DNA from: Isoperla grammatica | Lineage: Eukaryota > Arthropoda > Insecta > Plecoptera > Perlodidae | Assembly (NCBI GenBank): GCA_945910005.1 | Contig: OX246748.1 | Span: 8,595,363-8,659,362, forward strand | DNA: 64,000 nt | Direction of reading: 5' to 3' | Part shown: in pieces, positions 4,861 through 64,000 of the stretch | Numbering within the stretch: the stretch's first letter is position 1 | How the letters are laid out: each line of letters begins with the position of its first letter | The notes under the pieces: model-generated | Told to the model about the DNA's origin: nothing | Database searches by the model: none | What the model saw: the letters and a program-made list of their open reading frames with translations, nothing else | Made by a program: the position numbers and the translations under genes

Positions 4861-7734
4861 CTGATATTGTATTATTGTGTTACTGATAGGAAGACTTACG
4901 CCTCGTCTGTCTCTGCTCCACGTGCTGGTGTAGTTGTCTAGGATGGACTGATATACTTGTATTATTGTGTTACTGATAGGAAGACTTACACCTCGTCTGT
5001 CTCTGCTCCACGTGCTGGTGTAGTTGTCTAGGATGTACTGATATACTTGTATCATTGTGTTACTGATAGGAAGACTCACGCCTCGTCTGTCTCTGCTCCA
5101 CGTGCTGGTGTAGTTGTCTAGGATGGGCTGATATACTTGTATTATTGTGTTCCTGATAGGAAGACTTACGCCTCGTCTGTCTCTGCTCCACGTGCTGGTG
5201 TAGTTGTCTAGGATGGGCTGATATACTTGTATTATTGTGTTACTGATAGGAAGACTTACGCCTCGTCTGTCTCTGCTCCACGTGCTGGTGTAGTTGTCTA
5301 GGATGGGCTGATATACTTGTATTATTGTGTTACTGATAGGAAGACTCACGCCTCGTCTGTCTCTGCTCCACGTGCTGGTGTAGTTGTCTAGGATGGGCTG
5401 ATATACTTGTATTATTGTGTTACTGATAGGAAGACTTACGCCTCGTCTGTCTCTGCTCCACGTGCTGGTGTAGTTGTCTAGGATGGGCTGATATACTTGT
5501 ATTATTGTGTTACTGATAGGAAGACTTACGCCTCGTCTGTCTCTGCTCCACGTGCTGGTGTAGTTGTCTAGGATGGGCTGATATACTTGTATTATTGTGT
5601 TACTGATAGGAAGACTTACGCCTCGTCTGTCTCTGCTCCACGTGCTGGTGTAGTTGTCTAGGATGGGCTGATATACTTGTATTATTGTGTTACTGATAGG
5701 AAGACTTACGCCTCGTCTGTCTCTGCTCCACGTGCTGGTGTAGTTGTCTAGGATGGGCTGATATACTTGTATTATTGTGTTACTGATAGGAAGACTTACG
5801 CCTCGTCTGTCTCTGCTCCACGTGCTGGTGTAGTTGTCTAGGATGGGCTGATATACTTGTATTATTGTGTTACTGATAGGAAGACTTACGCCTCGTCTGT
5901 CTCTGCTCCACGTGCTGGTGTAGTTGTCTAGGATGGGCTGATATACTTGTATTATTGTGTTACTGATAGGAAGACTTACGCCTCGTCTGTCTCTGCTCCA
6001 CGTGCTGGTGTAGTTGTCTAGGATGGGCTGATATACTTGTATTATTGTGTTACTGATAGGAAGACTTACGCCTCGTCTGTCTCTGCTCCACGTGCTGGTG
6101 TAGTTGTCTAGGATGGGCTGATATACTTGTATTATTGTGTTACTGATAGGAAGACTTATGCCTCGTCTGTCTCTGCTCCACGTGCTGGTGTAGTTGTCTA
6201 GGATGGGCTGATATACTTATATTATTGTGTTACTGATAGGAAGACTCACGCCTCGTCTGTCTCTGCTCCACGTGCTGGTGTAGTTGTCTAGGATGGGCTG
6301 ATATACTTGTATTATTGTGTTCCTGATAGGAAGACTTACGCCTCGTCTGTCTCTGCTCCACGTGCTGGTGTAGTTGTCTAGGATGGGCTGATATACTTGT
6401 ATTATTGTGTTTCTGATAGGAAGACTTACGCCTCGTCTGTCTCTGCTCCACGTGCTGGTGTAGTTGTCTAGGATGGGCTGATATACTTGTATTATTGTGT
6501 TCCTGATAGGAAGACTTACGCCTCGTCTGTCTCTGCTCCACGTGCTGGTGTAGTTGTCTAGGATGGGCTGATATACTTATATTATTGTGTTACTGATAGG
6601 AAGACTCACGCCTCGTCTGTCTCTGCTCCACGTGCTGGTGTAGTTGTCTAGGATGGGCTGATATACTTGTATTATTGTGTTCCTGATAGGAAGACTTACG
6701 CCTCGTCTGTCTCTGCTCCACGTGCTGGTTTAGTTGTCTAGGATGGGCTGATATACTTATATTATTGTGTTACTGATAGGAAGACTCACGCCTCGTCTGT
6801 CTCTGCTCCACGTGCTGGTGTAGTTGTCTAGGATGGGCTGATATACTTATATTATTGTGTTACTGATAGGAAGACTCACGCCTCGTCTGTCTCTGCTCCA
6901 CGTGCTGGTGTAGTTGTCTAGGATGGGCTGATATACTTGTATTATTGTGTTCCTGATAGGAAGACTTACGCCTCGTCTGTCTCTGCTCCACGTGCTGGTG
7001 TAGCTGTCTAGGATGGGCTGATATACTTGTATTATTGTGTTCCTGATAGGAAGACTTACGCCTCGTCTGTCTCTGCTCCACGTGCTGGTGTAGTTGTCTA
7101 GGATGGGCTGATATACTTGTATTATTGTGTTACTGATAGGAAGACTTACGCCTCGTCTGTCTCTGCTCCACGTGCTGGTGTAGTTGTCTAGGATGGACTG
7201 ATATACTTGTATTATTGTGTTACTGATAGGAAGACTTACACCTCGTCTGTCTCTGCTCCACGTGCTGGTGTAGTTGTCTAGGATGGACTGATATACTTGT
7301 ATTATTGTGTTACTGATAGGAAGACTTACGCCTCGTCTGTCTCTGCTCCACGTGCTGGTGTAGTTGTCTAGGATGGGCTGATATACTTGTATTATTGTGT
7401 TCCTGATAGGAAGACTTACGCCTCGTCTGTCTCTGCTCCACGTGCTGGTGTAGTTGTCTAGGATGGGCTGATATACTTGTATTATTGTGTTACTGATAGG
7501 AAGACTTACGCCTCGTCTGTCTCTGCTCCACGTGCTGGTGTAGTTGTCTAGGATGGGCTGATATACTTGTATTATTGTGTTACTGATAGGAAGACTTACG
7601 CCTCGTCTGTCTCTGCTCCACGTGCTGGTGTAGTTGTCTAGAATGGGCTGATATACTTGTATTATTGTGTTACTGATAGGAAGACTCACGCCTCGTCTGT
7701 CTCTGCTCCACGTGCTGGTGTAGTTTTCTAGGAT
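4861..7734 (-). repeat. 90-bp satellite, about 32 copies, derived from a Pumilio exon/intron boundary
   Basis: The word CGTGCTGGTG recurs every 90 bp from 4,921 to 7,711, giving 32 monomers. The stretch 5,390-6,150 is almost perfectly homogeneous. On the minus strand each unit contains an AG acceptor (GTATATCAG), then 48 nt that include a stretch reading LHQHVEQ in one frame (a Pumilio motif), then a consensus donor GTAAGT or GTGAGT. That leaves 42 nt to the next acceptor. In 31 of the 32 units the donor varies only between A and G at position +3; one unit (near 6,151-6,160) has lost the GT. Because 90 is a multiple of three, long minus-strand frames appear (321 codons ending near 6,847). They are cut by a recurring G-to-A change that makes TAA, so I do not call them genes. 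The Pumilio pseudo-exon abuts the array at 7,703. Confidence 0.92.
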
Positions 7735-7816
7735 GGGGTCGTCTGTTCGGGTGTCCAATGCTCCAAGATGCGCTGGATCACTCTGCAGTCGTACGGGTGG
7801 TCGACAACGCAAACAC
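7703..7816 (-). pseudogene. pum: decayed Pumilio (PUF domain) exon, copy B
   Basis: On the minus strand an AG acceptor at 7,817-7,818 is followed by a sequence beginning VFALST. After a one-base loss shared with copy A it continues [10 protein letters not shown] and TPEQT and runs into the first satellite monomer, where LHQHVEQ is readable in another frame. Expected downstream PUF sequence is replaced by the satellite. In gene order on the minus strand it lies downstream of the intact exon at 9,779-9,893, which is the correct order for a Pumilio gene. The exon that should lie between them (containing CVKDQNGNHVVQK) is not visible. I infer a broken 3' part of a Pumilio gene or gene copy. Confidence 0.78.
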
Positions 7817-18865: not shown

Positions 18866-21706
18866 TCTTTATTCACTACAGGGCATACGCGCCACACAAG
18901 TGGAATACATATTAAATACAAACCGACAAACAAATTATATAATTTGCAGGGGTATCAAAAAATATCAAAACAAAGAATAAACAGAATAGGTGGTGGCATA
19001 CTTATATTTGTTAAAGAAACATTAAAATTTGCTGAAATTAACGTTGATTTTTTGAATGCAGAAGCGCTTTGTGGTACTATTTATCTTAATAACACATGTG
19101 TTCATTTGTTAGCTTTGTATCGTCCTCCTAACTTAAGTCGTTTAAACTTTATTGAAGAACTAGATGTGTTTTTAGGGAAATGTTTTGGCATTAATGGGAT
19201 CATAGTTGGGGACGTCAATATTAATTTACTTGATACTTTGGACAGATATACTGTTATGTATGAAGATGTGTTGGCCGCACACGGTTTTAGTAAATGCATT
19301 ACTAAAAGTACACGCGAAGAGTATATTTCTGGTAGGTTTGTGTCATCTTGTATTGATCACATTTTTTTGCGTGGAAGTTTCTCGTCATGTGAATCCGCTA
19401 TCCTTACCACTAAAGTCTCTGACCACTATATGGTGCTTACTTGTTTAGGGTTTATAGGAAAGTCTCTCAACGTTAATACGCATAATAATCATTCTAATGA
19501 CAATAATATCTCTGTCGCAATTACGCTTAACGAAAGAAAATTAAAGCATAACTTGTCTAATATTAACTGGAACTTAGCTTGTGATGCCGATGATCCAGAA
19601 GAAATATACACTATAATATCTAGACAGTTTACAGAAGCTTATGACAGTTCTATCTTCAGGGGGAATAAAATACCTAAGTCAAGAGATAGACCTCGCAAAA
19701 TATGGGTGTCTGACGAACTTGTTATTATGACGAAAGTTAGAGATAGACTTTTTAAAGATTGGAAAAACTGTATCCTTGGTGAAAAGAAAACCCGTCTTAG
19801 AACGGAGTATAATGCGTACAGGAATAAAGTTACAAAAGCTATAAACAAAGCAAAGATAAAGTTTTATCGCGAGTTAATTCTAAACGCACGAGGGGACTTA
19901 AAAGAGACGTGGCAAATTATCAACCAGATCACTGGAAAAAAGAAACGAATGTCAGTTGATGACGTAATCAATAAATTTTTGTGTAAAGACGTAGATGTGA
20001 ACCTAGTTGTAAACAATTTTGTGAATTCATTTGTTGACGAAATAAGTACGTTGAAACATGATTGTGACGTTGTTACATTGCAGCGAGCTCAGAATGTCAA
20101 TATCCCAGTGAGTCAATCGTTTTTCATGAAACCAGTTACTCTTCCAACTGTTAGGGAAATGATCGACTCACTTAATGTAAATAAACAGCCAGGTGTAGAT
20201 AAGATACGTGTTCAAGACCTGCAATTTGTCAAGGACTCTATTGCTCCTGTACTAGTCGTGTTAATAAACAAATCGATGGAGACCGGTATCATCCCTAAGC
20301 GCCTCAAAAAATCAATAATTAAACCAATATATAAGAAGGGTGACCATACGCTTTACTCTAATTACAGACCTATTGCAATATTGCCAAGTATTGAGAAACT
20401 TTTAGAAAGACATGTTGCTAACAACTTGATCGAATACTTAAATAAATACGGGATTATAAATAGTAAACAATTTGGTTTTCAAAAAGGAAAGAGTACCTCC
20501 ACACTGTTATTAGAGTTCTCCAATTACGTCAATTCTAAACTTAACGACAATATGCAAGTTTTGGCATTATTTGTAGATTTCAGTAAAGCATTCGATACCC
20601 TCAACCATCAGAAACTATTACGAGCTTTAGAGTCAATTGGCATCCGTGGAATTGCGTTAGACTGGTTTAAAAATTATTTAACTAATAGATTTATGCAGGT
20701 TAAAGTCAACGGCCAATCAAGTGAAGAAAGACCTTGTGATTCTGGGGTCCCACAAGGGTCTATTTTGGGACCGACTCTATTTTTGATTTATGTTAATTTT
20801 ATGTCCAAATGTCTTATTTTTTGCATTATTTTATCTTATGCTGACGATACTGTCTTACTTGCCGTGCATTCAGATATTCGTATTGCACAAGAAATGTTGC
20901 AAACTGATTTTAATAACCTTCTGCGTTGGAATCACGATAATGAATTAGTAATTAACTCGTCTAAAACTAAAGTTTTACATATTTCTTCTCCCCATAATCG
21001 TGAAAGAGACTTTCCTATAAATATCATTTATCATGATTTTAATTGCCTTCATAATGTGGATGAAGTGACATATTGTGATTGCAGTTTAAAAATAGAATGT
21101 GTGGACGAGTATGAGTACCTGGGCGTAATTGTTGATCGTAACTTTTCTTGGAGAAATCATATTGATAAACTATGTAATAAACTACGCTCATGCTCTTCTC
21201 GATTGTATGCACTTAAATATATTCTGCCCTTTACATTATTTAGAGCCGTTTATCAATCTATGGCCGAATCATTAATTTTATATGGCATTCTAGCTTGGGG
21301 CAATGCTTCGCGGTGCCATACGCAAAGGGTTGAAGACCTACAAGTTAGAATGCTAAAAATGGTAATATGCGACATCAAAATCGATACTACACTTTCTAGA
21401 AAACAAATATTTTCATTTTGTAATATACTGCCAATTTATTCTTTATTCGTATATAGATTTTTGTTGTACTTTTATTTTAAACCGGATTTTAAGATCCCTA
21501 TGGACACCTGTAAGGAGACAAGGCTCAAAGTGGCGGGCACCTTACAAGTTCCTAATTATACTAACAAATATGGCCAACGCTCTTTGTCTTACTCTGTGCC
21601 AACTATATTTAATATGCTACCATCCTCACTTAAAACCCTGTCGTCTATTTCTAAAATTAAATCTGAACTAAAAACACATCTACTTTCTGACACCTTTTTA
21701 CTGTGA
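18866..21706 (+). CDS. LINE ORF2-type protein: APE endonuclease (partial) and reverse transcriptase
   Basis: The frame is open from a TAA at 18,863 to TGA at 21,704-21,706, about 946 codons. There is no convincing ATG start, because the 5' end is truncated. Counting from codon 18,944 (920 residues), endonuclease motifs appear as GGGILIF (about 16), YRPPN (59), GDVNINLL (89), SCIDHIF (135) and SDHY (158); the N-terminal catalytic Asn/Glu segment is missing. The reverse transcriptase shows SNYRPIAILP, motif A FVDFSKAFDTLNH (about 543), motif B SGVPQGSILGP (600) and the catalytic YADD (632). The usual Asp after motif B (YVND) is replaced by Phe. The C-terminal region is typical of CR1/Jockey-like LINEs. 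The absence of any internal stop suggests a young insertion, but without the full endonuclease it could not make its usual nick unaided. Confidence 0.93.
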   Translation, partial: SLFTTGHTRHTSGIHIKYKPTNKLYNLQGYQKISKQRINRIGGGILIFVKETLKFAEINVDFLNAEALCGTIYLNNTCVHLLALYRPPNLSRLNFIEELDVFLGKCFGINGIIVGDVNINLLDTLDRYTVMYEDVLAAHGFSKCITKSTREEYISGRFVSSCIDHIFLRGSFSSCESAILTTKVSDHYMVLTCLGFIGKSLNVNTHNNHSNDNNISVAITLNERKLKHNLSNINWNLACDADDPEEIYTIISRQFTEAYDSSIFRGNKIPKSRDRPRKIWVSDELVIMTKVRDRLFKDWKNCILGEKKTRLRTEYNAYRNKVTKAINKAKIKFYRELILNARGDLKETWQIINQITGKKKRMSVDDVINKFLCKDVDVNLVVNNFVNSFVDEISTLKHDCDVVTLQRAQNVNIPVSQSFFMKPVTLPTVREMIDSLNVNKQPGVDKIRVQDLQFVKDSIAPVLVVLINKSMETGIIPKRLKKSIIKPIYKKGDHTLYSNYRPIAILPSIEKLLERHVANNLIEYLNKYGIINSKQFGFQKGKSTSTLLLEFSNYVNSKLNDNMQVLALFVDFSKAFDTLNHQKLLRALESIGIRGIALDWFKNYLTNRFMQVKVNGQSSEERPCDSGVPQGSILGPTLFLIYVNFMSKCLIFCIILSYADDTVLLAVHSDIRIAQEMLQTDFNNLLRWNHDNELVINSSKTKVLHISSPHNRERDFPINIIYHDFNCLHNVDEVTYCDCSLKIECVDEYEYLGVIVDRNFSWRNHIDKLCNKLRSCSSRLYALKYILPFTLFRAVYQSMAESLILYGILAWGNASRCHTQRVEDLQVRMLKMVICDIKIDTTLSRKQIFSFCNILPIYSLFVYRFLLYFYFKPDFKIPMDTCKETRLKVAGTLQVPNYTNKYGQRSLSYSVPTIFNMLPSSLKTLSSISKIKSELKTHLLSDTFLL

Positions 21707-33170: not shown

Positions 33171-36100
33171 TCTTCCCCGCAGTAGAGCAGAACCAAAAGC
33201 GGGTTTTCTCTCAAAAGAGAGCCTCTGATGCTCAGGCCCTTGCGAGGACATGAAACAAGATCTAACCTCCCAAGGAATCAACATCGCAGACCTCCGTCAA
33301 GTCCTTCGCCGAGATGACTCTCCACGTCACACCTTCTTCGCAGAGAAGCAAAGCCAAAAAGAAACTTCTCCCTCTCAAAAGAGAGCCTCTGATGCTCTGT
33401 CCCTTGCGAGGACATCAAACAAGATCTGACCTCCCAAGGAATCAACATCGCAGACCTCCATCAAGTCCTTAGCCGAGATGACTCTCCATGTCACACCTTC
33501 GCAGAGAAGCAAAGCCAAAAGATACCTCTCTCAAAAGAGAGCCTCTTCTTCTATGTTTCTTGGAGGACATCAAACAAGATCTGACCTCCCAAGGAATCAA
33601 TACCTCCACCTAGATGACTCACCACGTCACACCTTCTTCGCCGAGTATCAAAGCCAAAAAGAGACTTCTCTCTCTCAAAAGAGAGCCTCTTCTCCTATGT
33701 CCCTTGGAGGACATAAAACAAGATCTGACCTCCCAAGGAATCAATACCTTCATCTAGATGACTCACCACGTCGCACCTTCCCCGCAGAGGAGCAGAACCA
33801 AAAGAGACTTCTCTCTCAAAAGATGAGCCTATGTCCCTTGGAGGACATCAAACAAGATCTGACCTCCCAAGGAATCAAAACCTCCATCTAGATGACTCAC
33901 CACGTCACACCTTCTCTGCAGTAGAGCAGAACCAAAAGAGACTTCTCTCTCAAAAGATGAGCCTATGTCTCTTGGAGGACATCAAACAAGATCTGACCTC
34001 CCAAGGAATCAAAACCTCCATCTAGATGACTCACCACGTCACACCTTCCCCGCAGAGGAGCAGAACCAAAAGAGACTTCTCTCTCAAAAGATGAGCTTAT
34101 GTCTCTTGGAGGACATAAAACAAGATCTGACCTCCATCTAGATGACTCACCTCGTCACACCTTCCCCTCAGAGGAGCAGAACCAAAAGAGACTTCTCTCT
34201 CAAAAGATGAGCCTATGTCCCTTGGAGGACATGAAACAAGATCTGACCTCCCAAGGAATCAATACCTCCATCTAGATGACTCACCACGTCACACCTTCCC
34301 CTCAGAGGAGCAGAACCAAAAGAGACTTCTCTCTCAAAAGATGAGCTTATGTCTCTTGGAGGACATCAAACAAGATCTGACCTCCCAAGGAATCAATACC
34401 TCCATCTAGATGACTCACCACGTCACACCTTCGCCGCAGAGGAGCAGAACCAAAAGAGACTTCTCTCTCAAAAGATGAGCCTCCTCTCCTGTCCCTTGGA
34501 GGACATCAAACAAGATCTGATCTCCCAAGGAATCAATACCTCCATCTAGATGACTCACCACGTCAGTCCTTCCCCTCAGAGGAGCAGAACCAAAAGAGAC
34601 TTCTCTCTCAAAAGATGAGCCTATGTCCCTTGGAGGACATCAAACAAGATCTGACCTCCCAAGGAATCAATACCTCCATCTAGATGACTCACCACGTCAG
34701 TCCTTCCCCTCAGAGGAGCAGAACCAAAAGAGACTTCTCTCTCAAAAGATGAGCCTATGTCCCTTGGAGGACATCAAACAAGATCTGACCTCCCAAGGAA
34801 TCAATACCTCCATCTAGATGACTCACCACGTCACACCTTCCCCTCAGAGGAGCAGAACCAAAAGAGACTTCTCTCTCAAAAGATGAGCCTCCTCTCCTGT
34901 CCCTTGGAGGACATCAAACAAGATCTGACCTCCCAAGGAATCAATACCTCCATCTAGATGACTCACCACGTCAGTCCTTCCCCTCAGAGGAGCAGAACCA
35001 AAAGAGACTTCTCTCTCAAAAGATGAGCCTATGTCCCTTGGAGGACATCAAACAAGATCTGACCTCCCAAGGAATCAATACCTCCATCTAGATGACTCAC
35101 CACGTCAGTCCTTCCCCTCAGAGGAGCAGAACCAAAAGAGACTTCTCTCTCAAAAGATGAGCCTATGTCCCTTGGAGGACATCAAACAAGATCTGACCTC
35201 CCAAGGAATCAATACCTCCATCTAGATGACTCACCACGTCGCACCTTCCCCGCAGAGGAGCAGAACCAAAAGAGACTTCTCTCTCAAAAGATGAGCCTAT
35301 GTCTCTTGGAGGACATGAAACAAGATCTGACCTCCCAAGAAATCAAAACCTCCATCTAGATGACTCACCACGTCACACCTTCGCCTCAGAGGAGCAAAAC
35401 CAAAAGAGACTTCTCTCTCAAAAGATGAGCCTATGTCCCTTGGAGGACATCAAACAAGATCTGTCCTCCCAAGGAATCAATACCTCCATCTAGATGACTC
35501 ACCACGTCACACCTTCCCCTCAGAGGAGCAGAACCAAAAGAGACTTCTCTCTCGAAAGATGAGCCTATGTCCCTTGGAGGACATCAAACAAGATCTGACC
35601 TCCCAAGGAATCAATACCTCCATCTAGATGACTCACCACGTCACACCTTCCCCTCAGAGGAGCAGAACCAAAAGAGACTTCTCTCTCGAAAGATGAGCCT
35701 ATGTCCCTTGGAGGACATCAAACAAGATCTGACCTCCCAAGGAATCAATACCTCCATCTAGATGACTCACCACGTCACACCTTCCCCTCAGAGGAGCAGA
35801 ACCAAAAGAGACTTCTCTCTCGAAAGATGAGCCTATGTCCCTTGGAGGACATCAAACAAGATCTGACCTCCCAAGGAATCAATACCTCCATCTAGATGAC
35901 TCACCACGTCACACCTTCCCCTCAGAGGAGCAGAACCAAAAGAGACTTCTCTCTCGAAAGATGAGCCTATGTCCCTTGGAGGACATCAAACAAGATCTGA
36001 CCTCCCAAGGAATCAATACCTCCATCTAGATGACTCACCACGTCACACCTTCCCCTCAGAGGAGCAGAACCAAAAGAGACTTCTCTCTCGAAAGATGAGC

Positions 36101-36440
36101 CTATGTCCCTTGGAGGACATCAAACAAGATCTGTCCTCCCAAGGAATCAATACCTCCATCTAGATGACTCACCACGTCACACCTTCCCCTCAGAGGAGCA
36201 GAACCAAAAGAGACTTCTCTCTCGAAAGATGAGCCTATGTCCCTTGGAGGACATCAAACAAGATCTGACCTCCCAAGGAATCAATACCTCCATCTAGATG
36301 ACTCACCACGTCACACCTTCCCCTCAGAGGAGCAGAACCAAAAGGCACTTCTCTCTCAACAGAGAGCCTCTACTCTGTCGATTTGAGTCACACGATTGTA
36401 GCATGAAACGAGATCTGATCTCCCAAGGAATCAACATCGT
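33171..36440 (+). repeat. 134-bp satellite, about 24 copies
   Basis: The unit GATGACTCACCACGTCACAC ... CAATACCTCCATCTA repeats every 134 bp from about 33,780 to 36,300. The first monomers (33,171-33,780) are longer (about 158-164 bp), containing an extra AGACCTCC(G/A)TCAAGTCCTT segment, and are more diverged. The last units (35,500-36,300) are almost identical. Each monomer can pair CCTTGGAGG with CCTCCCAAGG. Frames of 64 codons repeat in every unit but end at the same TAG and shift with the period, so they are not genes. Confidence 0.95.
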
Positions 36441-58690: not shown

Positions 58691-59261
58691 GATATACACG
58701 AGAGCCCTCTGTGCGGACACTAAGTCCGAATTCATAGTCGTCCCCTACACCAAGGGGTGCCCGTTGTTGCTAGATGACATTTTCATGCACGTTATCCATA
58801 TATAGAAAATAAATCCTACTAGGGTGAAAAGATGATCATAAATTCCGGCTTGAGGAAGGACCACCAAGTAGCTCTAGTTCCCTATGTCGCCGCCTCCCGC
58901 CTCAGCGCTAAAAGCAACAGGGCTCGTCCACTAACCCTTGACCCGAGCACGTGTGGGAGATGATTCTTGAATAAATTACCTTTAAGAGGCGAGGCGCACA
59001 CACACCGGTCATTTCCTTTTCGTGCATTTTTATTTGTTTTCGTTTTTCGCTCACGCCCTATTTATTTAGATTCCGTTTAGACGTTATTATTCTTTAGAAT
59101 TGCGTAGAATGTTTGTGCGGAGGGATCATCCGAAAATCTAGAGACGTTTTAACAGCATCAATATGAGGACTATTATTAAAAGCATCCACGCCCAATTCCA
59201 TTGTGTTATTATTATTTTGTTTCGTTGTCATGTTGGCGCGCATGGGTTTGGAACATTTGAA
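58691..59261. other. no gene
   Basis: Mixed base composition without a frame or shared repeat. Confidence 0.35.
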
Positions 59262-59500: not shown

Positions 59501-60116
59501 ACAGGAGAAGAGGAGATTACAAGGGAGGTAAATGGGAGGAAAATGGAAATACGAGGACCCGCATTCGTGGAGTTTACGACTTCAAGAGCCACGCTGGACC
59601 CAGACGGGGAGAAAATGAATTTTCTATCATATTGATCCTTAAAAATGTAAACCCGACGCTTCACTCTTTACGCATCACAAATATAATATGAGGTCTTTAT
59701 TAAATTGAGATAGAAAATACGTCACGCTAATCCATAGTCAAATCTCAACTTATTTCCACTATAATTACAAATCCTATATCAACACCAAGATCCCATGATA
59801 GGTCGTTTAATGATTGCGTAAATCAATTGACCAACCTATTAATAATTATCCTTAACGAAAGTCTTTATCTAAGTGATCATAAATCAAAGTTAAATTAGGC
59901 GGGGCACACTTATGAGTGTAGTTAAACCTTCCTTATTTAAAAAGCAGTTTTATAGATAATTTGTGCAGATTGCGTGATGTGGATCATGTTAAATATATGC
60001 GAGACGATGAAAATGTAAATGTTTAATTCATGGAATAATCTGCTCATAAATCACAAACGTTCCACAAAATGTGCTGCAGCAAAATGCAGACTTAAGGTTA
60101 TAGATATATTAATAAT
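59501..60116. other. no gene; 60,081-60,116 is duplicated at 63,841-63,876
   Basis: A last SINE scrap (GACCCAGACGGGGAGA) is near 59,598-59,613. The block AAAATGCAGACTTAAGGTTA immediately left of the palindromic element recurs at 63,841 (one copy has T for G and A for G). Confidence 0.6.
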
Positions 60117-60964
60117 AGTCCTTTGCATAACGCTCGAAAAAGGCCTGGTCGGTATAAAATTTGGGTCAAAGGATGACATATATCAAATGAAAGCTTGAGA
60201 TGAGTACTTTTCAAAAAACCATGATATACCTCTGACAAATCCAGCTTTCTATGTCAAAACCAGGGTCAAAGGTCAAATTTGTAATTTTTTAAATAATTTT
60301 TGATTAAATAACGAAAAATGTTTGCAAGTTTAAAAATACTCTTTTAGTAAGATAAATGTATAAAGTTTACTAAAAAAAAAATTAAATTACCTATCTACCT
60401 TTTTTGACCTTGATTGGGGTCAATTTCCTCAAAATGGGTAATTTCTAAAATGTTCTTCGATTTATTGGCCAATATTCATTATATCAACGTACTTCCTCAT
60501 TAATACGTTAAAATAAATAGTTCTTATTGTTATCACATTGTTTCCACGGTATTCATTCAAAATGGCGGTCAAAGGTCAATAGGTAAGTATCGTCAAACTA
60601 GGTCTAGTAACTAAAATATTACTTGTGGGTACTCTAAAGACGCAGAATTTTAACTGCAATTACAATAACGAATAATTATATCATGTTTTAATCGTAAGAG
60701 AATGTAATTATCATATAACTTATAAACTACTTAAGATTGTTACTGATCTTCTAATTATAATGTCCTCAGACATAAGGGTATTCTTGAATGGGTGTGCAAC
60801 TGCAACAAAATACATTTTTAGAAAAGAGCATGACCATGCTGAGATACGTGATATGATAGTATGATATGATATCTGTCCTAGCAGTCACTGTCTAGTCGTC
60901 AAATTAATCAAAATTCAAATAAGTCAAAATCATTCAAAATTGAAGTCGTCAGATTAATCACCTT

Positions 60965-61290
60965 CTGATTGACTGGAATTCTCATGCTGGGTACCGATAT
61001 TTGGACAGTCCTTCAGCTTACACGCGTGGGTACACTTTTATTGATTGGCTAAACACTCACATGTCGGCATCTTGCAAACACGGCAACAGTTAGAGGCTAG
61101 GAGATCCATAACGGTCAAAGGTACTGGAGTTCCAATCATCCACTCGTTGCTCAGATCTCCTTCTGCCGTGGTTTCCCATCCATAGCCGCGCGGATCAGGA
61201 TTATGGTTGGCGTCCAAACAACGTATCCAGACCGCTGTTTGGTGGTTAACTCGCAGCCGCAGGATTTGAAGCATTAGACAATCGTTTCAA
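60965..61290 (-). pseudogene. inverted 3' fragment of the CxC-domain protein gene
   Basis: On the minus strand the frame reads LRVNHQTAVWIRCLDAN, PRGYGWETTAEGDLSNEWM, VPLTVMDLLASNCCRVCKMP and TCECLANQ, then TAA; the continuation KCTHACKLKDCPN lies in frame beyond the stop. It agrees closely with the plus-strand copy at 61,860-62,213 but has a different disabling stop, so the two arms decayed independently after the palindrome formed. Confidence 0.75.
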
Positions 61291-61414
61291 GGTGGTAGCT
61301 GATTAGACTAAATATCATCACATTTACTTTTAAAAAACTCTTAGGGCAGCTGGTTGACGCTTGACTACCAAAAATTAAACACACTTCGAAGATGTGTAAA
61401 AACTAGCGAGTTCG

Positions 61415-62213
61415 TTGGGATTCGAAGTATGTAATACCCTCCCTGACCTCCATGCACTGGTTGGGACAAAGGTTGGAATTCATAGTCGGCCACTTCACCT
61501 AGAGGCACCCAATGTTGCTATGGGATATGTTTTCTATATGGGAAATGACTTGTATGAAACTGTTACCTTGTTAACAACGGGCTCATCTATAGGTGTAGGG
61601 GACGACTATGAGTTCCAACCTGAGTGAGCTCAGTCAGTGGTAAAGGAAAAAAGAGAACTTTGAATATCATGAGAAAAACTCGCATTTCTGTGTCAAGCTA
61701 AGCAAGATGGGTCACGACTAGAGAGTTTCTATCGATGTCATCAAAAAAACTCGAAGAGTTTGTCTGTAAACTCAGCTCTTTGACCACGACTCTGTCATGC
61801 GTCAACCTTCTGCGCTACGAGCTTTTTAGAAGTGTGATGATATGAAGTCTAATCAGCTACCACCTTGTAACGATTGCTTATACTGCTTCATATCCTGCGA
61901 CTGTGAGTTATCAACCAAACACAATCTATTGTTACGTTGCTTGGAAGCCAACCCTGATGTTCCTGATCTTTGTGGCTATGGATGGAAAACCACGGCAGAA
62001 GGAGATCTGAGCAACGAGTAGATGATTGGAATTCCAGTACCTTTGACCGTTATGGATCTCCTAGCCTGTAACTGTTGCCGTGTTGCATGCAAGATGCCGA
62101 CCTATGAGTGTTTGGCCAATCAGCTGAAGTGTACCCACGCGTGTAAGCTGAAGGACTGTCCAAATATCGGTACCCAGCATGAGAATTCCAGTGACTCAGA
62201 AGGTGATTAATCT
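61415..62213 (+). pseudogene. decayed gene for an invertebrate repeat-family protein with a C-terminal CxC domain
   Basis: Plus-strand remnants appear in order. The first is FEVCNTLPDLHALVG (61,418), resembling the motif LPALHAxTGCD found in a large family of uncharacterised invertebrate proteins. A decayed middle part follows. Then come RCLEANPDVPDLCGYGW, TTAEGDLSNE (stop in place of Trp at 62,020), PLTVMDLLACNCCRV and a cysteine-rich tail (KMPTYECLANQLKCTHAC, KLKDCPN) ending in TGEGD-like acidic residues and TAA. In that family the tail has the pattern CxCxxxCxxxxCxCxxxxLxCTxxCxCxxC, probably zinc-binding. Family recognition is from memory of its motif pattern; the link to a mobile element is what the present context shows. 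Confidence 0.68.
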
Positions 62214-63033
62214 GACGACTTCAATTTTGAGTGATTTTGACTTCAATTTTGATTAATTTGACGACTAGACAGTGGCTGCTAGGACAGATATCATATCATA
62301 CTATCATATCACGTATCTCAGCATGGTCATGCTCTTTTCTAAAAATGTATTTTGTTGCAGTTGCACACCCATTCAAGAATACCCTGATGTCTGAGGACAT
62401 TAATTAGAAATTCAGTAACAATCTTAAGTAGTTTTTATATGATAATAAAATTCTCTAACGATTAAAACATTATATTGTTATTCGTTATTGTAATTGCAGT
62501 TAAAATTCTGCGTCTTTAGAGTACCCACAAGTAATATTTTAGTTAGGCCTACTAGACCTAGTTTGACGATACTTACCTATTGACCTTTGACCGCCATTTT
62601 GAATGAATACCGTGAAAGCAATGTGATAACAATAAGAACTATTCATTTTAACGTATTTATGAGTAAGTACGTTCATATAATGAATATTGGCCAATAAATC
62701 GAAGAAAATTTTAAAAATTACCCATTTTGAGGAAATTGACCTCAATTAAAGTCAAAAAAGGCTATATGGGTACTATAATTTGTTTCTAAAGAAACATAAT
62801 TCATTTACTTTACTAAAAGTGTATGATTAAACTTGCAAACATTTGTCATTATTTAATTAAAAATTATTAAAACAATTACAAATTTGACCTTTGACCCTAG
62901 TTTTGACATAAAAAACTGGATTTGCCAGAGGTATATCATGGTTTTTTGAAAAGTACTCGTCTCAAGCTTTCATTTGATATATGTCATTCTTTGACCCAAA
63001 TTTTATACCGTCATTCTCGTTATGCAAAGGACT

Positions 63034-63162
63034 ATAATTACAGTTAAGAATTAAAGCATAACAAAATATTCAACAGGCAAAAGTAACCTATATATACATA
63101 TATATTCGTGACACAGCATTAACTCAATGATCAATTTCGTTTTAAAAATATCATTTTGAGTT
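63034..63162. repeat. duplicated flank of the palindromic element (pair with 63,872-64,000)
   Basis: AATTAAAGCATAACAAAATA, CAACAGG and TATACATATATATTCGTGAC recur in order at 63,872-64,000. With 60,081-60,116 this shows that the palindrome split one copy of a duplicated sequence. Confidence 0.9.
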
Positions 63163-63355
63163 TTACGTCGTACTCGATATCAAGGTCATGTGACGTCGGC
63201 AGAATCAGATCCATCACTCGAGTCCATTTAAGGGTTGGAGGACTTATATTTGAAACTTGTAATGGGAGGATGGGGAAAGTGGGAGACTGCATTTTCTCGC
63301 CTTTTACGAACGGCAGAGGTAAACGCTGGGCCAAATTCTACCCCGGGCCCAGACG
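63155..63355 (-). mobile_element. SINE, diverged H3 tail and head C
   Basis: GAGTTTTACGTCGTACTCGA, AAGGTCATGTGACGTCGGCA, body, TCGCCTTTTACGAACGGCAG, TTCTACCCCGGGCCCAGACG. A further head-C scrap (TTCTACACCGGGCCCAGACG) lies near 63,491. Confidence 0.8.
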
Positions 63356-63681
63356 TCGCAATAATGGGAAGATAACCTAGAAATAAATTAATATGGCAAA
63401 AATGCACGAAAAAGCCAAAAAAGCCCCCAAAAACGGGACAAGAAACATCCAAAATAAAATGAAGAAGGCAACAACGTATGAAAAACCAAAATTCTACACC
63501 GGGCCCAGACGGGGCAGAGTGGAATGAGATCTCGGATATAAAATTAAAAAGGCAACGATGTATGAAAAAGACAAGACAAATCGTGAGTTTTTTTTTTTTT
63601 TTTTTTACTGTAATGGATGTGAGCAATTTGTTGTTATAAAATCTATGCGTGTTTTATTAAAATATATTTTTTGTGTGTGTT

Positions 63682-63740
63682 TAGACGTACTCAACAACTG
63701 TCATATGCCGTCGGAGGGGATGGGGGGGGGGGGGGGGGTG
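63682..63740 (-). mobile_element. SINE tail fragment, H3, followed by 18-nt G run
   Basis: TTTAGACGTACTCAACAACT, GTCATATGCCGTCGGAGG, then a G run to about 63,738. Confidence 0.72.
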
Positions 63741-63840
63741 AGACCCAGGAAAGTGTTAATTAGGGGAACTTATATTTTAGCTCATTTTCTTAACTCTGAA
63801 GATCGGCAAAGAAATACTCCGCTTCTGTTTTCTACGGGAC

Positions 63841-64000
63841 AAAATGCATACTTAAGATTATAGATATATTAATAATTACAAATATGAATTAAAGTATAAC
63901 AAAATATGCAACAGGAATAAGTAACCTTTATATACATATATATTCGTGACACAGCATAAACTCAATGATCAATTTCGTTTTAAAATTATCATTTTGAATT
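63841..64000. repeat. empty-site copy of the palindromic element's target
   Basis: Continuous counterpart of 60,081-60,116 plus 63,034-63,162, with ATAAT once. The match runs to the end of the window, so the duplication is probably longer. Confidence 0.9.

Follow-up and report, generated by a model that had tools for sequence, protein, structure and literature searches.

A 2917-bp animal mobile element, made of two mirror-image copies of one end, occupies positions 60117-63033 of the 64,000-nucleotide stretch of the Isoperla grammatica genome analysed here (contig OX246748.1, forward-strand positions 8,595,363 to 8,659,362; the whole stretch is called the window). The element probably derives from a DNA transposon, of which it is a non-autonomous, palindromic (3'-3') version; the last gene of that parent, most likely an element of the AcademX type, would code for a nuclease of the XPG/FEN type that ends in a CXC zinc-binding tail. 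Its parts and insertion site are listed below; counts out of 120 refer, here and throughout, to the best 120 of the 248 proteins found for the family of this gene.

60112-60116, no strand: left target-site duplication ATAAT in the 5-bp parse (in the 3-bp parse, TAA at 60113-60115)
60117-60132, plus strand: left terminal inverted repeat AGTCCTTTGCATAACG, an exact inverted match of 63018-63033
60117-61366, minus strand: left arm, an inverted copy of the terminus, the non-coding subterminal region and the 3' coding part, 89% identical to the right arm
60164, 60264, 60567 and 61113 (60164-61121), plus strand: four GGTCAAAGG motifs of the left arm
60954-61364, minus strand: mirrored 3' part of the XPG-CXC gene, a pseudogene, up to the mirrored stop (120/120 proteins, frame -3)
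61367-61469, plus strand: first part of the sense fragment, as far as LHALVG (31/120 proteins, frame +2)
61470-61621, no strand: insert of 152 bp that interrupts the LHALTGCD motif and ends in 35-bp inverted repeats
61622-62207, plus strand: sense fragment with the GKGKK region, the LPP..W region and the CXC tail (120/120 proteins in frame +3, 86/120 in frame +1)
61794-63033, plus strand: right arm, 89% identical to the left arm
62040, 62584 and 62888 (62040-62896), minus strand: three GGTCAAAGG motifs of the right arm, in the same orientation relative to the end
62208-62210, plus strand: gene stop codon, separated from the element end by 823 bp, with a matching stop in the left arm
63018-63033, minus strand: right terminal inverted repeat, an exact match of AGTCCTTTGCATAACG
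63034-63038, no strand: right target-site duplication ATAAT in the 5-bp parse
63840-64000, plus strand: un-inserted target copy, the second copy in a host tandem duplication, running off the window

The boundaries of the element are set by its termini and by the host DNA on either side. Within the window, AGTCCTTTGCATAACG has two matches at up to three mismatches, both exact and both at the element ends. The element is preceded by TTAATAAT and followed by ATAATTACA, and an un-inserted host copy within 63840-64000 reads TTAATAATTACA, without the element. Specifically, the left flank corresponds to 63840-63876 (37 bp, 95% identity) and the right flank to 63872-64000 (129 bp, 91%); ATAAT occurs just once at the junction. 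This target is found in the window because the surrounding host DNA (60080-64000) is tandemly duplicated, with a unit of about 838 bp and 91-95% identity, and it is a paralogous copy in that duplication, not the allele. Taken together, the flanks and the un-inserted copy fix the boundaries to within 2 bp, and three parses fit: a 5-bp ATAAT duplication around AGTCC ends, a 3-bp TAA duplication around TAGTCC ends, and a 1-bp duplication around ATAGTCC ends. A first-pass annotation of the window had described a 2.9-kb mobile element with definable ends, 16-bp perfect termini and an un-inserted target at 63.84-64.0 kb, all of which hold; its ATAAT duplication is present, but the length of 5 bp is only one of the possible parses.

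The 1.25-kb mirrored arms of the same annotation are likewise borne out. The arm-to-arm alignment has 89% identity over 1266 columns including gaps (mismatches at 104 of the 1224 aligned bases, plus 12 indels), and the left arm ends at 61365/6. In the predicted folding of the element, 1138 of 1276 pairs run from arm to arm, and the minimum free energy is -1931 kcal/mol, against -578 to -868 for eight random windows of equal length. The length and identity of the arms, the arm-to-arm pairing and the folding energy rule out a palindrome by chance. Divergence between the arms is unevenly spread, at 1-6% in five 100-column bins (60516-61009) and 7-21% in the other eight, and none of 5000 permutations was as uneven; the simplest cause of the low mid-arm divergence would be gene conversion from arm to arm. 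Among viral contigs, five stretches have a single match each to the terminus and none has paired ends.

The gene fragment belongs to a widespread protein family. The search started from a consensus of the suspected family, which returned 248 proteins at E<=10 among 492 candidates, the best at E 4e-80. Among the matches listed, some members, from crabs, fish and a beetle, are named "Tesmin/TSO1-like CXC domain-containing protein", and others are hypothetical or uncharacterised proteins of snail, hagfish, lamprey, anemone and coral; some clusters hold many sequences (523 in P0026). When the 120 family proteins were compared with the window by tblastn, 357 matches were obtained at E<=0.01, every one of them within the element. 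Each of the 120 proteins matches the element on both strands, on the minus strand within the left arm (best E 2e-30 at 44% identity). Membership follows from these matches of real proteins to the element, not from the consensus query, and sequence similarity confirms that the element carries a genuine, decayed 3' part of a family gene. The annotated decayed gene of a widespread family, and the inverted recurrence of its 3' coding part in the other arm, therefore both stand.

Direct searches with the decayed pieces of the window were less informative. No protein was found among 49 candidates at E<=0.001 or among five at E<=10, a result for which decay is the likely cause, since the same database contains the family. 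Against solved structures, the pieces gave by sequence only weak and unrelated rows (best E 0.25 and 0.077), and four of them had no match in NCBIfam. The CXC tail of the element has a weak match to the Pfam TCR domain (PF03638), at E=0.017 and 15.9 bits, under its 23.5-bit cut-off; among ten intact relatives, the same domain scores 14.5-16.1 bits in five and is not listed in the other five. Relatives were not found in viral contigs (0/74 and 0/31 stretches).

The inverted and sense copies meet at about 61366/61367, inside coding sequence, at a joint placed to about 10 bp. Of the 120 minus-strand matches, 105 start at 61358-61364 and seven lower; 94 end at one of the eight most frequent end points, all situated between 61029 and 60933. 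On the plus strand, similarity upstream of the insert starts at 61358 or 61367 in 28 of 31 proteins, and the sense similarity thus begins within about 10 bp of the end of the left arm. The spacer between the arms consists of about 275 bp of the gene and the 152-bp inverted-repeat insert. Each orientation thus has a single copy of the gene, restricted to its 3' part, and the two termini go back to one and the same 3' end; what has been doubled here, tail to tail, is the 3' end of a larger element.

The gene is disrupted at several places. The sense fragment at 61622-62207 is split over frames +1 and +3, with an in-frame TAG at 62019-62021. Of the LHALTGCD-type motif recognised by the first-pass annotation, the LHAL part is readable, but HxxTGCD is not intact, as the element reads LHALVG and is then interrupted by the 152-bp insert. 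Differences between the arms at 61830-62207 are even over the three codon positions (12/124, 12/123 and 16/122), a pattern without visible coding constraint after the palindrome had formed, so the element was or became non-autonomous. In its present state it is both decayed and non-autonomous. The insert itself has a 76% relative at 58728-58816, about 2.7 kb upstream, and represents a nested family resembling miniature inverted-repeat transposable elements.

By predicted structure, the central domain of the family has the FEN1/EXO1/XPG nuclease fold. Compared with the XPG/FEN1/EXO1/XRN 5'-nuclease superfamily, the family would differ by its fused CXC tail and its large N-terminal region, and its identity to EXO1 and human FEN1 is 11-13%. 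The family profile returned two unrelated rows only among solved structures, the best at 0.039. A search of genome contigs for relatives was positive for one of 49 stretches, a 6512-bp contig (L006; JAJRVU010000273.1) that codes for an intronless family member of 1466 aa, extended at its N-terminus by a long additional region. No Pfam match to this protein attains the cut-off of its model, and neither it nor ten family proteins matched KDZ transposase or CxC models of Pfam in hmmscan, where such an absence is not conclusive. Short matches between the non-coding arm of the element and the 3' region of this contig (best E 0.001 over 24 bp, in opposite orientation) were not taken as homology. The contig is eukaryote-like and transposon-like, and is filed in a metagenome-assembled genome of Planctomycetota, likely as contamination of a public bacterial genome.

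An XPG nuclease accompanying a transposase is a hallmark of AcademX transposons. The likeness of the element to AcademX lies in a nuclease that would be encoded with the transposase, as the family may be of the XPG/FEN type by predicted fold, and, in the TAA parse only, in the length of the duplication. PMC10045372 gives 3-4-bp target duplications for AcademX and 9-10 bp for AcademH, a distinction tied to the encoded nuclease or helicase; the TAA parse, one of the three, is compatible with the former. The element differs from AcademX in being a palindrome of one end, and the window holds only the tail of the nuclease gene. The XPG-CXC gene would belong to the parent transposon, and for the AcademX type of that parent the chances appear about even.

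Several observations weigh against the derivation of the element from an AcademX-type parent with an XPG-CXC gene. The duplication may be of 5 bp, which does not fit AcademX. The family is wider than bivalves (snail, crabs, fish), whereas PMC10294476 reports that, of the molluscs it covered, hardly any but bivalves have Academ. The placement draws on the described features of the AcademX lineage. The nuclease assignment comes from predicted structure alone: a sequence search with the family profile did not recover any XPG/FEN chain, Foldseek gives modest TM-scores (at most 0.30 when normalised by query length), and rows for the unrelated SUMO E1 are scattered through the Foldseek list from E=0.0075 on. 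At the joint, eight of the 120 minus-strand matches extend beyond it. The contig of the 1466-aa relative is cut at its 5' end and lacks the window terminus at up to three mismatches, and a complete element with both ends was not seen. The N-terminal region of this relative, a putative transposase, has a weak Pfam match to DUF6589 that is under its cut-off, no solved structure matched the protein by sequence, and the model of the region is poor (mean pLDDT 42.5) and unusable for searching.

The first-pass annotation had offered two alternatives for the gene, an unrecognised transposon class that encodes the family and a transposon that captured and mirrored the gene. In the second, an unrelated transposon would have taken up part of a host XPG-CXC gene, from its 3' side, after which the end of the carrier would have been mirrored together with the fragment. 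The 823 bp between the stop codon and the terminus, of unknown origin, and the absence of an intact element among those seen speak for capture. Conversely, the fragment reaches a stop codon common to both arms, seven codons beyond the last plus-strand similarity, and the copy continues to the terminus on both sides. The family is also found in crustaceans, fish, snail, cnidarians, hagfish and others, with some large clusters, and one relative is intronless over 1466 codons. Transposon genes commonly have this structure, which an animal host gene so large would rarely show. On the strength of the shared stop, the run to the terminus on both sides and the intronless relative, a transposon-encoded family fits better, and capture is rather unlikely. 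Within the first alternative, an unrecognised class is possible, but less likely than a known and little-studied superfamily, since the XPG/FEN fold points to AcademX. An undescribed superfamily or lineage with 5-bp duplications and AGTCC..GGACT termini would draw on a 5-bp parse that is as good as the 3-bp one, on the lack of any Pfam model at cut-off over the 1466-aa relative, and on a literature search that returned no paper combining at least three of TSO1-like CXC, XPG, transposase and Academ. A nuclease with 3-4-bp duplications is, however, already described for AcademX, and a 3-bp parse is available, so this lineage is judged unlikely. Among the papers listed in the literature searches, none visibly ties the CXC family to transposons, in a coverage that lacks most subscription journals, and the link may therefore be in print. 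A bolder version, in which the "Tesmin/TSO1-like CXC" proteins would be the transposases of such a lineage with a built-in XPG/FEN nuclease, and in which 3'-3' palindromes would arise from end-processing by the nuclease and silence the parent as natural hairpins, is a long shot.

It is improbable that the element is an ordinary member of a long-inverted-repeat (foldback) family, in which 1.25-kb inverted repeats carrying the end of a gene would be the normal structure and not a one-off palindrome. Inverted repeats of this length are present, as are repeated motifs within the arms, but the spacer is coding sequence and the joint is inside coding sequence on both sides, a layout in which an autonomous element could not keep its gene. 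According to PMC4079207, the foldback transposons named Tetris share with the element long inverted repeats, non-autonomy and a target duplication, and differ in duplications of 8-10 bp, in internal repeats of about 220 bp, and from the fragment of a gene in each arm and the intragenic joint seen here. In line with this difference, the direct repeats listed within an arm measure at most 31 nt. Nucleases additional to the transposase also occur in KolobokE and KolobokP, DNA transposons of which the latter comes from animals; as described in PMC9587614, these nucleases are lambda-exonuclease-like and His-Me finger enzymes, in contrast to the XPG type here.

For a palindromic derivative of an AcademX-type parent, the following origin is proposed. 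Aberrant repair or replication would have fused two copies of the 3' end of the parent, an inverted one that extends from the interior of the gene to the terminus and a sense one that is slightly longer, giving an inverted duplication at the 3' end with a loop of about 275 bp. The product would lack a 5' end and have the same functional terminus on both sides. The transposase of an intact parent may then have mobilised it in trans, by cut-and-paste, to its present position, leaving the target duplication. A transcript of the element would be a near-complete hairpin, antisense to the gene of the parent, and could seed silencing of the parent. Mu killer, an inverted duplication of part of the maize transposon MuDR that includes transposase gene sequence, produces a hairpin transcript. 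By analogy, the element would share with Mu killer the inverted duplication of part of an autonomous transposon, and differs in its animal host and in that silencing is only a possibility.

The subterminal regions contain candidate transposase binding sites. The GGTCAAAGG motif has seven copies in the window, all within the element and mirrored between the arms, and one of the four in the left arm falls in coding sequence. In 1000 dinucleotide shuffles of the left arm, the motif was absent in 993, present once in seven and present four times in none. The motif was picked after being seen, and any 9-mer reached at least four copies in 19 of 1000 shuffles, so that the general signal is modest. 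An exact GGTCAAAGG also occurs in the 3' region of the contig of the 1466-aa relative, oriented to the gene in the same way; it is the only match there at up to one mismatch, where 1.46 are expected by chance, and is no evidence. Motifs of this type could serve in transposase binding.

Elsewhere in the window, 18866-21706 is an open frame of 946 aa with a reverse transcriptase match (RVT_1, E 3.7e-34) and a weak endonuclease match, and is a non-LTR (long terminal repeat) retrotransposon with a long intact frame. A 90-bp tandem array (31.9 copies, 98%) lies at 4867-7737; its unit length is divisible by 3, which keeps minus-strand frames of 455, 119 and 323 codons open there. A 268-bp (2 x 134) array (10.5 copies, 93%) lies at 33551-36369.

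Proteins named "Tesmin/TSO1-like CXC" occur widely in animal genomes, where they can readily pass for host genes. The element provides this little-known family with a mobile context whose ends are written down, and suggests that the family belongs to DNA transposons; predicted structure would add a function class, that of a FEN/XPG 5' nuclease. The 3'-3' layout implies that one transposon end, used twice, suffices for transposition. Lastly, the transposon origin of these proteins and the superfamily to which they belong become testable by a simple genome search.
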